This document shows positions 6,920 through 12,954 of a stretch of DNA of 32,264 nucleotides, in pieces (the first letter of the stretch is position 1; each line of letters begins with the position of its first letter). The DNA comes from Candidatus Komeilibacteria bacterium (GTDB taxonomy: Bacteria; Patescibacteriota; Patescibacteriia; UBA1558; GWA2-36-10). The position numbers and the translations under genes are program-made. The notes under the pieces are model-generated. The model had not been told where the DNA came from. It searched no databases and was given only the letters and a program-made list of their open reading frames with translations. Location of the stretch: assembly GCA_018656065.1 (NCBI GenBank), contig JABHZY010000008.1, forward strand, positions 1 through 32,264, given 5' to 3'.

Positions 6920-9493
6920 TTATGAAGCTATCTCATCAGCCTCGTCAAAATTCATAGAAAGTAACTTAGATATACCATCGTCCCCCATAGTAACTCCATA
7001 AATTATCTTAGCTTTATGCATAGTAGCTCTATTATGAGTAATAGCTATAAATTGAGTTTTACTAGATAATTCATCTAATATTTCACTGAAGCGAATTGAA
7101 TTAGCTTCATCAAGCGCAGCATCAACTTCATCAAGCACTACAAATGGAGATGGATTATTAGCAATAATGGCCGAAATTAAGGCGATGGAAGTTAAGGCTT
7201 TTTCTCCGCCCGAAAGCATATTAATGCCAGAAAGTTTTTTGCCTGGAGGAGTGGCTTTTATTTCAATACCATATTGTTTTTTAACTTCTACTTCTTCCTC
7301 TTCAAGCTCTTCGTCTTCTTCACTAACCTCTCTGTTATTAACTTTTGGTTTTTTTATTTCTGAAATATCTAAAATTAATTCTGCCTTACCACCACTAAAT
7401 AATTTTTTAAAATATTGATTAAATAAAATATTGATATTTTTAAAAGCTTTATCAAACTGCTTAGAAATAGATTCTTCTAAATCTTTGATTATCTTTTCTA
7501 AATGCGTTATGGCTTCTGCCAAATCATCACTCTGTTCTTTCAAAAATGTATAACGCTCATTTACTTCTTCATATTCTTCCACGACCACCTCATCAATACC
7601 TCCAATAATACTAAGCTGATTTTTGAGTTTGTTAATCTTGTCTCTAGCTTCAGAAATATTTACGTCCTTTGCTTTAGTCAATTCAAAGCTAGGAAATTCT
7701 TCTGATATTTCTCTATTAAGCTCTTCTTCTCTTGTCTCTAGTCTAGCCAAATCAACTTTTACTTCATTAAGTTGACTATTTTTAGAATTAAAATTAGCTT
7801 GCACCTCTCTAAAACTTCGCTGTGCTTCAACTAAAGAGCGTTTTTTACCTTCTTCAGCTTCATTAAATTCTTTAATTTGTTTTTCAGTATCTTCTATCTC
7901 CTGATTTTTAGCTTCTACCTGCTTACTTAAATTATCTAATTGTTTTTTATTCTCGTCGCTACTACCAGACTTATCTAATAAAGCTTTTTTATCATTTTCT
8001 AATTTATTAAATTCTTCTGTATCTTTAGTTGTCTGCCCTTCAAGTTGCTTCAATTCATTTTCTAAAATAGCTAGACTAGTTCGTGCTTCACCTATCTCAG
8101 CCACTAAGTTATCTTTACTAGATAACATTTTATTAAATTCTTCTTGCCAATGTTTTTTATCCTCTTCTTTATTTACTTTAATCTTTTTGGCGAAAGAATT
8201 CATAGCTTCTGTAATGCTGCCACAAATTTCTTTTAGCTTTGGCAAATCTTCTAAACTTTTTAAGCTATCTAAAGTATTTTGGAAATCTTTTTGCTTATTT
8301 AATATACTATTTACTTTAGTAGCCATTTCTTCTGGAGATAAATCATGACCATTGCTCATTAATTTTTCTTCTAATTTAGAAAACTCGGCTAAAATCTGCT
8401 CTCTCTTGTTCTCTAAAATATTCACCTCTGATTGATTAGTATCCAATTTAGTCTTTTTTTCTTTGAGTAAAAGGCTATTTTTATTTATGTCGTTTTTTAA
8501 ATTATCAATTCTTTGTTTTAGCCATACTACGTCACTCTGACCAGAAGACATTAATTTTAAATCTGAACGGCCCTCTAAAATAGTTTTTTCTTTGAGTAAA
8601 GTATTTAATTCATTTTGATGTTGCCCTAATTTATTCTGTAGAATTTCAAAACTATCTTGACGAGAAGAAGTTTTCTCCTCTTTTTCTAACTTAGTTTGTA
8701 ATTCTATTAACTGTTGATTAAGTTCGGCTACTTCTGTTTGAGCGGCTATAAAAGATTTTCTTTTTTCTGCCAAACCTTTATCTAAACCACCCTTGAGAAA
8801 GCTATAATAATTTGTTTGTAATTCTTTTAACTCTTTACTTAGACTCTCTCTCTTTTCTAATTTCTTCACTTGCCTAGTTAAAGATCTTAATCTTGGTTCA
8901 AGCTCAGCTAGAATCTTATTAGTTTGTTCTAAATTATCTTTAGAGTTATTAACTTTATTAACCGCTTGATTCTTTTTAATTTGAAATTGTTTTACGCCCG
9001 TAGCTTCATCAAAAAAATCTTTTCTTTCTTGAGCTGAAGAAACTAAAATAGAATCAATCATACCCTGCCCAATCACACTGTAGGTACGTTGACCAAAATT
9101 AGCCTTAGCCAAAAGAAGCTGGACATCCAGAAGTCTAACTTTATTATTATTAATCAAATATTCACTATCTCCGTTTCTTTCTACTTTTCTAGTAATAATA
9201 ATTTGTTCATAATCAACGTCGGCTTGTTTATCTTTATTATTTAAATAAAGACTAACTTGAGCAAAACCAAGTTTATTTTTTTTATCAGAGCCAGCAAATA
9301 TTACATCTTCTAACTTTTTTCCACGTAATGTTTTAACACTCTGCTCACCTAAAACCCAACGAACAGCATCGGCTACATTAGACTTTCCCGATCCATTTGG
9401 CCCAACAATAACTGTCAGGTCCCGATTAAAAATCAACGTGCTAGGATTAGCAAATGATTTAAAACCTTGGATTTCTAACTTTTCTAGATACAT
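6920..9493 (-). CDS. smc: Short SMC-like chromosome segregation ATPase
   Basis: GPNGSGKSNVADAVRWVLGEQ Walker A; LSGGEKALTSIALISAI signature; FVVLDEVDAALDEANS Walker B; 857 aa with no recognisable canonical hinge. Confidence 0.92.
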   Translation of the reverse strand: MYLEKLEIQGFKSFANPSTLIFNRDLTVIVGPNGSGKSNVADAVRWVLGEQSVKTLRGKKLEDVIFAGSDKKNKLGFAQVSLYLNNKDKQADVDYEQIIITRKVERNGDSEYLINNNKVRLLDVQLLLAKANFGQRTYSVIGQGMIDSILVSSAQERKDFFDEATGVKQFQIKKNQAVNKVNNSKDNLEQTNKILAELEPRLRSLTRQVKKLEKRESLSKELKELQTNYYSFLKGGLDKGLAEKRKSFIAAQTEVAELNQQLIELQTKLEKEEKTSSRQDSFEILQNKLGQHQNELNTLLKEKTILEGRSDLKLMSSGQSDVVWLKQRIDNLKNDINKNSLLLKEKKTKLDTNQSEVNILENKREQILAEFSKLEEKLMSNGHDLSPEEMATKVNSILNKQKDFQNTLDSLKSLEDLPKLKEICGSITEAMNSFAKKIKVNKEEDKKHWQEEFNKMLSSKDNLVAEIGEARTSLAILENELKQLEGQTTKDTEEFNKLENDKKALLDKSGSSDENKKQLDNLSKQVEAKNQEIEDTEKQIKEFNEAEEGKKRSLVEAQRSFREVQANFNSKNSQLNEVKVDLARLETREEELNREISEEFPSFELTKAKDVNISEARDKINKLKNQLSIIGGIDEVVVEEYEEVNERYTFLKEQSDDLAEAITHLEKIIKDLEESISKQFDKAFKNINILFNQYFKKLFSGGKAELILDISEIKKPKVNNREVSEEDEELEEEEVEVKKQYGIEIKATPPGKKLSGINMLSGGEKALTSIALISAIIANNPSPFVVLDEVDAALDEANSIRFSEILDELSSKTQFIAITHNRATMHKAKIIYGVTMGDDGISKLLSMNFDEADEIAS

Positions 9494-9617: not shown

Positions 9618-9955
9618 TAAAAAAATAGTGACCTCCCAACTAACGAATAGCGAGAGGTCCGGCTGAGCACTGAGACTCAGTTAGATATGGCGTCGCGAGA
9701 CTCAAGTGATGGCTAATGACCGTTCTCCAACTGGAGCAAGAGAGAGAACGAACTTGTCTCGGATTTGAGCTCTCTGTCAGAAAGTACACTTGTACCGACA
9801 AGAGGATCAGTATTCCAAGTAAGGTGCCAACCACCCCAGCCAAAGGCTTGTGAGCCTCGCGACGCGTTGTAGATTGGAGAGCCCTCAGGCCTGCTTGTAG
9901 CAGTCTTCTCTGGTGATGAGACCCGAGGGCTCCCCTTGATATCTATACGCTTCGA
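9618..9955 (-). ncRNA. Candidate structured non-coding RNA of unknown class
   Basis: Promoter TTGACA-N17-TATTAT, multiple paired helices including a 13-bp long-range helix, intrinsic terminator with T7 tract, no ATG on the minus strand of the region. Confidence 0.65.
9619..9659 (-). terminator. Intrinsic terminator of the candidate RNA
   Basis: GACCTC...GAGGTC stem followed by ACTATTTTTTT on minus strand. Confidence 0.65.
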
Positions 9956-9961
9956 TGATAA

Positions 9962-9990
9962 ATAATACTCTAAAATATACTTAATGTCAA
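9962..9990 (-). promoter_or_regulatory. Promoter TTGACA-N17-TATTAT for the candidate RNA
   Basis: Minus-strand hexamers at 9990-9985 and 9967-9962. Confidence 0.7.
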
Positions 9991-10056: not shown

Positions 10057-10749
10057 TTACCATTTTTTAATTTCTATAGCTTGGGCAGCTGCTTGAGTCT
10101 GAGCTTCTTGTTTGCTATATCCTTCCCCCTTAGCTACCAACTCTTTTTCTATATATACTCCCACTACAAATTTTTTATTGTGATCAGGCCCCGATTCATC
10201 CAAAACTCGATAATGTGGTGTTAGACCTGCTTTTTCCTGAGCTCGTTCTTGGAACATGCTTTTAGCATCGATATAAGTCTTATCTTCAATAATCTTAGCT
10301 AAATGAATAATTAAGTTTTCATTAATAAACTTAGCGGCTGGTTCATAACCTTGATCTAGATAGATTGCCCCTACTATTGCTTCAAAAACATTAGCTAAAA
10401 TATACTGACGAGCTTTTTTATTACCATCCTGAGATTCTCCTTTAGATAAATACATAAAATCATATACTCCTAAAGTTTCTGAAACAGAGGCTAGTCTTTC
10501 TCCATTAACCAATGATGATCGCCAGTTGGTCAGTATTCCTTCGGCTTCACTATAATTTCTATAAAGATAGTCAGTTACCACTAATTCTAATACAGCGTCT
10601 CCTAAAAACTCTAAACGTTCATTTTGATCAAAGGTAAAGTTTTTATGTTCATTCAAATAAGAACGATGCACTAAAGCATTGCGTAAATAATCTGTATTTT
10701 TAAATTTGATATCTATTTTACTCTCTAGTAAACTGAGTTGTTTTTTCAT
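10057..10749 (-). CDS. rnc: Ribonuclease III
   Basis: NERLEFLGDAVLELVVTDYLY signature; C-terminal dsRBD KGEGYSKQEAQTQAAAQAI. Confidence 0.95.
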   Translation of the reverse strand: MKKQLSLLESKIDIKFKNTDYLRNALVHRSYLNEHKNFTFDQNERLEFLGDAVLELVVTDYLYRNYSEAEGILTNWRSSLVNGERLASVSETLGVYDFMYLSKGESQDGNKKARQYILANVFEAIVGAIYLDQGYEPAAKFINENLIIHLAKIIEDKTYIDAKSMFQERAQEKAGLTPHYRVLDESGPDHNKKFVVGVYIEKELVAKGEGYSKQEAQTQAAAQAIEIKKW

Positions 10750-10750
10750 A

Positions 10751-11614
10751 CTAATTCAATCCTAATTTCTCCAAACCTTTATTAAAAACATCTTTAGCAT
10801 TATCATACCCTAAGGTTTCTAAAGCCTCTGCTTTTGAAAACCATTTTACATCTTTAAGTTCTGTAACATCTGGTACAATTATTTTCTTATCCTTAGCTTC
10901 CACTAAAAAATATTTAATTAATTTTCTATAAGGTTTTTCGCTTGGCTTATGTACTTTTACTTCTGTCTCACCTATATAGCCTTGGCTAGTTAATTTTTTC
11001 AAACCTGTTTCTTCAGTCAACTCTCTAAGTGCAGCCTCTTCTTCTTTTTCACCAGGCTCAACTCCTCCCTTAGGAAAAGTCCATTTATCATAAGCATCAA
11101 GAATTAAAGCAAAATAATAACCATCATCTTCTTGACGATAAATCATGCCGCCAGCTGACATTTCTTTAATGCCCTGACTACCTAAATCTTGCTTTTCGCC
11201 ATTTTTTATCATCTCTTTATAAATACTGCCTAATACTCCATTTACAAATTTACCACTAGAATCTCCACCAAAAGCTTTGGCTAATTCAATAGCTTCATTG
11301 ATAGCTACTTTAGGTGGTATATCTAAATCTAATTTAAGTTCATAAACACCAATACGTAAAACATTACGATCAGTAACAGTAATTTGATCGATTGGCCATT
11401 CAGGAGCAAAGCTAGTAATAATATTATCTAACTCTGCTTGTTTAGTAGTTACACTTTTTATTAACTCTAAAGAAAAACCCTGATCATCAAAATCAGGTGC
11501 AAATTCTTCTCTTATATAGTTAAAGATTTCTTCTATATCTTTCTTACCCTGTAAAAAATCCCACTCAAAGAGCGTTTGTAGGGCTATTGTTCTGGCTAAA
11601 TGTCTATTGGCCAT
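10751..11614 (-). CDS. NusB-Nudix hydrolase fusion protein
   Basis: N-terminal NusB (RHLARTIALQTLFEWDF, VLRIGVYEL, INEAIELAKAFGGDSSGKFVNGVLGSI) fused to Nudix box GGVEPGEKEEEAALRELTEETGL. Confidence 0.9.
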   Translation of the reverse strand: MANRHLARTIALQTLFEWDFLQGKKDIEEIFNYIREEFAPDFDDQGFSLELIKSVTTKQAELDNIITSFAPEWPIDQITVTDRNVLRIGVYELKLDLDIPPKVAINEAIELAKAFGGDSSGKFVNGVLGSIYKEMIKNGEKQDLGSQGIKEMSAGGMIYRQEDDGYYFALILDAYDKWTFPKGGVEPGEKEEEAALRELTEETGLKKLTSQGYIGETEVKVHKPSEKPYRKLIKYFLVEAKDKKIIVPDVTELKDVKWFSKAEALETLGYDNAKDVFNKGLEKLGLN

Positions 11615-11887: not shown

Positions 11888-11916
11888 ATTATAGCATATT
11901 TTAGAGGGCTTGACAA
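11888..11916 (-). promoter_or_regulatory. Promoter TTGTCA-N17-TATAAT for rpmF operon
   Basis: Minus-strand hexamers at 11916-11911 and 11893-11888. Confidence 0.65.
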
Positions 11917-11938
11917 AACAAAAATAACATGCTATTAT
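11910..11938 (+). promoter_or_regulatory. Promoter TTGACA-N17-TATTAT for the 12-kb RNA
   Basis: Plus-strand hexamers; -35 overlaps the divergent rpmF -35. Confidence 0.7.
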
Positions 11939-11943
11939 TCGTA

Positions 11944-12147
11944 GTTACTGAGTAACGAACTTTATAAAAAACTGTTTTTAGGTAACTGTGTCCACGACAA
12001 GCATGGGGATCATTTTTCAGATCTAATTCGGCTCAGGCTCAATTTTTTCGAGAAATGATTTTCTTGGGCACAGTTATCTGGAAGCAGATAAACTTATAAA
12101 AATACAAATCAAAATTAAAACCCCGCCAAACTAGCGGGATTTTTTAA
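11944..12147 (+). ncRNA. Candidate structured non-coding RNA of unknown class
   Basis: Strong promoter; hairpin GTTAC-TGA-GTAAC; 14-bp closing helix GGTAACTGTGTCCA (11981-11994)/TGGGCACAGTTATC (12065-12078); inner helix ATCATTT/AAATGAT; hairpin TATCTG-GAAG-CAGATA; terminator; no plausible ORF. Confidence 0.6.
12119..12147. terminator. Bidirectional intrinsic terminator
   Basis: cccgccaaactagcggg followed by T6 on plus; ggggtttt on minus. Confidence 0.75.
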
Positions 12148-12180
12148 TTGTTTTGATTATTAAACATGACATCGTGGATA

Positions 12181-12954
12181 TTATTGAAAATATCCATCCT
12201 TGTCTCTTTCAAGTTTATCAACTGTATCCTTATAATAAGAATCATCATCATTTAAAAGTGTCTTTGCTCTATCTAATAAATCCTGCTTGGATTTATTATC
12301 GCCCGCAGATCGCAAATCTTCCATCAATTGCCTAAAATCATTCATTCTATTAGAATCTACTCCTACATAACCAAAAATATGTTCCATTACCTTCAAATAT
12401 ACATCTAATCTTCTGTTTAATATCTCTTCGTCGTCACTTTCTGATTCCGTTACTTCTTGAACCCCATCCCTTGCTTTCTGCAGATTGAGACTTTCAACTG
12501 TTGTACCTGTCTGTTCGTACAGTGTCTCTGCGCCTACTGCAATATGGTTAAGGTTTACCCATGCCTCTGCTGCCCGTTCTTCTGTAAATTGAATATTTTC
12601 TGCAGATTCAGCGTCAGGTATAACCTTTTTCAAGTTATTTAAAAATCTTTTTGAATCACTTGAGGCTAGCACTAGTTCGTTTCTTATTATATCCGCTCTT
12701 CTCTCTAACATAGAATATTCTCCTAAAATTTCAGCATTAGTTTCTAGAAATCTGTCTAGTTTTTGTGTCGCTACATCTATTCTAGTCTGTAGCAAGTTAT
12801 CGTAAGATTCTATTTGTTCTATCAAGTGTAGTTTTTCAGATTCTAAATCAACCTCTCCCTCCTGCTCTTGCCGTTCCATCACTTTAGGCTCTACTTTAGA
12901 ATTTCCATCGCCACTTTTTTGTAAAGATTCCATTTTACCTTTTTCAAAAATCAT
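12181..12954 (-). CDS. Hypothetical coiled-coil protein
   Basis: Long ORF with high charged/heptad content; start may be internal (MESLQKSG at 12933). Confidence 0.7.
   Translation of the reverse strand: MIFEKGKMESLQKSGDGNSKVEPKVMERQEQEGEVDLESEKLHLIEQIESYDNLLQTRIDVATQKLDRFLETNAEILGEYSMLERRADIIRNELVLASSDSKRFLNNLKKVIPDAESAENIQFTEERAAEAWVNLNHIAVGAETLYEQTGTTVESLNLQKARDGVQEVTESESDDEEILNRRLDVYLKVMEHIFGYVGVDSNRMNDFRQLMEDLRSAGDNKSKQDLLDRAKTLLNDDDSYYKDTVDKLERDKDGYFQ

Follow-up and report, generated by a model that had tools for sequence, protein, structure and literature searches.

In Candidatus Komeilibacteria bacterium (genome G000), the window analysed here, a stretch of 32,264 nt from contig JABHZY010000008.1, carries a minus-strand unit (9990-9619) between rnc and smc. 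It consists of a promoter, a strongly folded predicted transcript of about 335 nt and an intrinsic terminator, and its same-strand neighbours are a NusB-Nudix fusion, rnc and smc. Upstream lies rnc (10057-10749, minus strand), encoding RNase III with the Pfam domains Ribonuclease_3 and dsrm, which has its own terminator at 10049-10028. Downstream lies smc (6920-9493, minus strand; Pfam SMC_N), preceded by a promoter-like site with an extended -10 at 9566-9538. The fusion of NusB to a Nudix domain occupies positions 10751-11614 of the window, also on the minus strand.

The promoter of the unit is of the sigma-70 type, TTGACA-N17-TATTAT (9990-9962), with 11 of 12 consensus matches in the promoter scan, and it is kept in the two orthologs described below. 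It is followed by a 5' leader, AUCGAAGCGUAUAGAUAUCA (9955-9936, taking the inferred start), which can be aligned in three species and is mostly single-stranded in the ortholog folds. The unit ends with an intrinsic terminator (9659-9619) whose stem, GACCUCUCG...GGGAGGUC, spans 9659-9630 and whose T-run lies at 9625-9619. This terminator was read from sequence and fold, the loop limit of the terminator scan having passed over the stem; one of the orthologs (G002) has a terminator as well. Both ends of the transcript are thus predicted from the sequence. The initial annotation had described this promoter, a transcript of about 340 nt devoid of ATG and a terminator with a T-run, and we find all of them, including the lack of any ATG in the transcript. 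The unit is GC-rich, 0.51 versus 0.37 in the window. The rnc terminator on one side and the promoter-like site before smc on the other indicate that it is separate from both genes. Since the RNA immediately precedes smc and shares its strand, one might still regard it as a cis-acting leader or attenuator of this gene. But a complete terminator and a separate extended -10 promoter-like site stand between the two, and in relatives smc has a matching site in front of it irrespective of what the gap contains, which makes such a role quite improbable.

The fold and its conservation in three species

The minimum free energy of the predicted RNA is -137.7 kcal/mol, compared with a mean of -103.4 (sd 5.9) for shuffled sequences, i.e. 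a z-score of -5.8, and none of 100 shuffles folds as well. Helix A, GGGGAGCCCUCGGGU/GCCUGAGGGCUCUCC (9935-9921 with 9890-9876), encloses the hairpin CUGCU-ACA-AGCAG (9903-9891), as had been proposed. A long-range helix B then pairs GCGUCGCGAGGCUCA (9865-9851) with UGAGUCUCGCGACGC (9704-9690), and no shuffle out of 100 gives an equal helix. The initial annotation was right about this helix and short on its length, given as 13 bp where we count 15. The domain that it closes (9850-9705) is multibranched and poorly conserved, and includes the previously noted hairpin CUCC-AGUU-GGAG (9736-9725). Between helix B and the terminator lies hairpin C (9680-9663). It had been read as CUGA-GUC-UCAG; the hairpin is there, and the pairing CUGAG-UCUCAGUG-CUCAG is to be preferred because the ortholog has CUGGA-UCUCAGUG-UCCAG.

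Searching the DNA of 93 related genomes, we obtained one clear ortholog, which has the same location in G002 and comes with a promoter (TTGACA-17-TAATAT) and a terminator. This was the only match with a convincing E-value, the remaining ones being short and terminator-like. A third copy of the RNA, in G003, emerged when the sequence preceding smc was inspected across the family; it again has this location and a TTGACA-17-TAATAT promoter. Its elements come in the same order: promoter, leader, helix A, long-range helix GUCGCGAG/CUCGCGAC, hairpin and terminator-like hairpin. G002 and G003 are two further species of the genus, and their RNAs have fold z-scores of -6.8 and -8.2, respectively. Among 384 genomes of the class, a covariance model built on the 5' part of the three sequences matched no others. 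G001, from the same genus, has a shorter and weakly structured unit (z-score of -1.6) that the model does not match. The RNA had been called an orphan, and this holds for the RNA type, which is confined to three species among these 384 genomes.

Between G000 and G002 we found 14 compensatory pairs in which both sides changed, when independent substitution would lead to 6.7 (P = 0.0045); controls with slid partners gave 0 to 2 such pairs. From these two sequences alone, RNAalifold finds covariation in 11 of 72 consensus pairs. Helix A shows compensatory changes at three core pairs among the three species, A-U to G-C once and C-G to U-A twice, and hairpin C has two compensatory pairs relative to G002 with an invariant UCUCAGUG loop. 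G003 contributes further compensatory changes in helix A (A-U to G-C, C-G to U-A). For this genome, covariation was counted on hand-aligned helices only, because the MAFFT alignment of its interior is poor. The statistics are thin because there are three sequences of this exact type among the genomes searched, and we regard these two- and three-sequence numbers as supportive rather than conclusive.

The primary sequence has been much less constrained. Identity to the nearest ortholog is 64%, versus 60% and 65% at the four-fold degenerate sites of rnc and smc, respectively. The RNA thus matches the identity of four-fold sites: its pairing has been maintained, but its sequence is almost free to drift. 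The 3' strand of helix B, almost invariant in G002, is one of the short elements that stand out from this background.

Coding potential and known RNA classes

The initial annotation named codon periodicity in homologues, as opposed to base-pair covariation, as the pattern that would speak against a structured RNA. The homologues show the latter: the fold is kept in G002 and G003, there are compensatory pairs, and substitutions are indifferent to frame. Between G000 and G002 they fall 44/35/39 over the three frames of the RNA, compared with 14/5/70 in rnc, and the indels have lengths of 1, 2, 3, 7 and 10 bases. We found no protein-coding signature in the RNA, either in the reading frames of the three species or in the substitutions and indels between G000 and G002. 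A messenger for a short peptide could use the longest frame in G000, which starts with TTG and has 67 codons' worth of product (67 aa). Yet there is no ATG, no codon periodicity, and the frame is not kept, the longest ones having 35 aa in G002 and 36 aa in G003. Hence, we deem this explanation very improbable.

An Rfam scan of the window, suggested beforehand as a check that a significant hit would have decided against the proposal, returned no match at the gathering level and nothing relevant up to an E-value of 10. The RNA had been set apart from RNase P RNA and tmRNA by eye, and the covariance models concur: neither RF00010 nor RF00023 matches it, and it shows neither the conserved core of the former nor the tRNA-like domain of the latter. 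The genome has its true RNase P RNA at G000:C6:85701-86039 and its true tmRNA at G000:C6:291214-291600. 6S RNA (RF00013) was also rejected, since the model does not match and the fold is multibranched instead of a rod with a central bubble. The absence of SRP RNA matches in the family raised the prospect of a diverged SRP RNA. As had been noted for the SRP signals, neither RF00169 nor RF01854 recognises the RNA, and the candidate was dropped as Ffh is absent too: its M domain is missing from all 21 family genomes, so that no SRP RNA is expected. The 6S and both SRP RNA models gave no matches in these 21 genomes, and they do give matches in control genomes. SRP loss in Parcubacteria has already been published (PMC4508563).

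The SRP thus appears to have been lost family-wide. There is no ftsY or ffh between smc (6920) and rpsP (5404), and the classical gene order puts them between smc and rpsP-trmD.

The size of the RNA, similar to those of RNase P RNA and tmRNA, and the lack of SRP RNA and 6S matches in the family are what one would cite for a diverged housekeeping RNA. But with the first two present elsewhere in the genome and Ffh missing throughout the family, and given that such RNAs do not diverge as quickly as silent sites, we find this exceedingly improbable.

The rnc-smc gap and other RNA units

Fourteen of 20 family genomes have in the rnc-smc gap one or more units that are driven by a promoter and contain no long reading frame. 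These units are usually GC-rich and end in a terminator, and their sequences rarely align. In 9 of 17 units there is a long-range helix that no more than 1 in 100 shuffles equals; units without a significant fold include L037_0, L039, L040_0 and L045_0. The gap is almost nonexistent in L048 and L049, which have no such unit, and in L045 it contains an ORF of 130 aa beside the structured unit. In L036-L039 the gap has an ORF on the opposite strand, and its start resembles a signal peptide. GC-rich opposite-strand ORFs for secreted-looking proteins, with a common DAWTNVGSEIGTT-type motif, occur in the gap of these loci and of L082. Among the 80 nearest GTDB rnc loci outside the family we found no such arrangement, with the possible exception of a GC-rich structured gap in Jacksonbacteria (L109); smc closely follows rnc in these loci, or a protein gene lies between them, or smc falls outside the stretch fetched. 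The rnc-smc locus is thus a variable slot, refilled across the family with other RNA or small-gene units.

The 8-mer TGAGTCGC is shared by five units that belong to different genera; in 200 shuffle sets, no 8-mer occurred in as many units. A family-wide search for this motif (as GAGTCGC) with promoter spacing gave three matches, one of which is the rnc-smc locus, when some 2-3 are expected by chance. The spacing limits of the pattern leave out some known units. Since the matches are no better than chance, the motif is not a marker of a genome-wide class.

The unit might be one of many short-lived cassettes that come and go in this lineage, made of a strong promoter, a GC-rich insert and a terminator, and its RNA might have little function or be a decaying remnant. 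The differing slot contents in relatives, including the secreted-protein-like ORFs of L036-L039 and the 130-aa ORF of L045, would fit, as would the many strong promoters of G000 that precede short GC-rich units. Yet compensatory changes and fold z-scores below -5 in three diverged species imply that structure has been selected for longer than decay allows, and we find a cassette of this type an unlikely origin of the RNA.

The most interesting rival, which we also hold to be unlikely, ties the RNA to the adjacent RNase III: double-stranded character itself would be the function, as substrate, decoy or sensor, with selection for long helices and freedom in the sequence. Every family member that has a unit has it next to rnc. 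What the units share is a long-range helix of some 9-15 bp, their sequences being largely different, and in this RNA helix A adds another 15 bp. On the other hand, the helix B 3' strand and the UCUCAGUG loop are conserved in sequence, and L048 and L049 do without such a unit. In E. coli, the autoregulatory leader of RNase III is the rnc 5' UTR. The RNA described here resembles it in being structured, with long helices, and in adjoining rnc, but it forms a transcription unit of its own, downstream of that gene. Its separate promoter, placed after the rnc terminator, rules out a cis autoregulatory leader of the E. coli type. One might extend this to the whole family and speculate that the gap is a dedicated slot for helix-closed RNAs, selected for double-stranded shape and hardly for sequence, with a shared role, possible coupling to RNase III and TGAGTCGC as the only sequence hallmark; we consider this doubtful.

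The window contains a second structured RNA unit (11944-12150, plus strand), with a promoter at 11910-11938 and a terminator at about 12120-12146, between an rpmF-like L32 ORF and the ORF at 12181-12954. It folds into a rod with a closing stem of 22-24 bp, a one-sided bulge of 10 nt in CCACGACAAGCAUGG, a stem of about 14 bp and a GGCUCNGGCU apex (z-score of -8.8). It is conserved in the family and also found at Komeilibacteria (L091) and Kerfeldbacteria (L116) loci. In 12 diverse sequences, 19 of 46 consensus pairs show two-sided changes and 27 of 552 cells are broken; the CUGUGUCCACGACAAGCAUGGG element is nearly invariant. This unit has no Rfam match. It is possibly an unrecognised 6S-like RNA, RF00013 having no matches in the family. 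Being far better conserved, it has more promise than the rnc-smc RNA as a widespread new RNA family of these bacteria.

Some other units of G000 deserve mention. Helix-closed units with strong promoters and no long frames occur at L184 (C21 ~50742, minus strand), L064 (C6:30399, plus strand) and L198 (C28 ~5497, minus strand). At L070 (G000:C6 ~108927-109350, plus strand) a strong promoter is followed by apparent tandem c-di-GMP-II riboswitch aptamers, one with an Rfam match of 74 bits and a second similar copy recognised by eye, and by a response-regulator-like ORF. Genome-wide there are about 95 perfect TTGACA-N17-TANNNT sites, compared with 14 for a reversed-pattern control. Many precede short ORFs with a GC content of 0.45-0.58 (37% in the window), some with signal-peptide-like starts.

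A probable lineage-specific structured RNA gene

Taken together, these results point, with a probability of roughly 0.6, to an autonomous, lineage-specific gene for a structured noncoding RNA that probably acts in trans. The part of this reading that concerns an autonomous structured RNA gene is supported, as a prediction from three sequences, by the promoter and terminator, the fold, the covariation and the non-coding pattern of change. With no Rfam match and a range of three species, it is a new RNA family of a known kind. Its strong sigma-70-type promoter and intrinsic terminator would give a transcript of about 335 nt, expected to fold into the 5' leader, helix A, the domain closed by the long-range helix B, hairpin C and the terminator. 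Selection would hold the helices and a few short elements (the leader, the 3' strand of helix B and the UCUCAGUG loop), while the rest drifts at about the rate of silent codon sites. RNase III or an enzyme like it might trim the long helices, and the stable RNA might act in trans, using its exposed leader and loops to bind a protein or target RNAs. We infer the trimming and the action in trans from the anatomy of the gene, i.e. the strong promoter, the terminator, the GC-rich closed domains, the conserved leader and the invariant loop.

Gene anatomy, intergenic position and fast turnover between species are reminiscent of bacterial trans-acting intergenic sRNAs. Unlike typical sRNAs, this RNA is longer, more structured and has a domain closed over a long range. 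It also recalls the orphan structured RNA classes obtained by comparative genomics, for example in a study of 104 motifs (PMC2864571), which were found by conserved structure without a known function, and like them forms an autonomous unit. But those classes have numerous members similar in sequence, whereas here there are three species whose sequences can barely be aligned. Noncoding RNA in Patescibacteria has received little study, and we found almost nothing on it in the literature.

An RNA gene that keeps its fold and loses its sequence at the rate of silent sites is of a sort that homology searches and Rfam miss, and the rnc-smc gap is a concrete place to find such genes. If double-stranded shape alone matters, this would be an unusual mode of selection on RNA.
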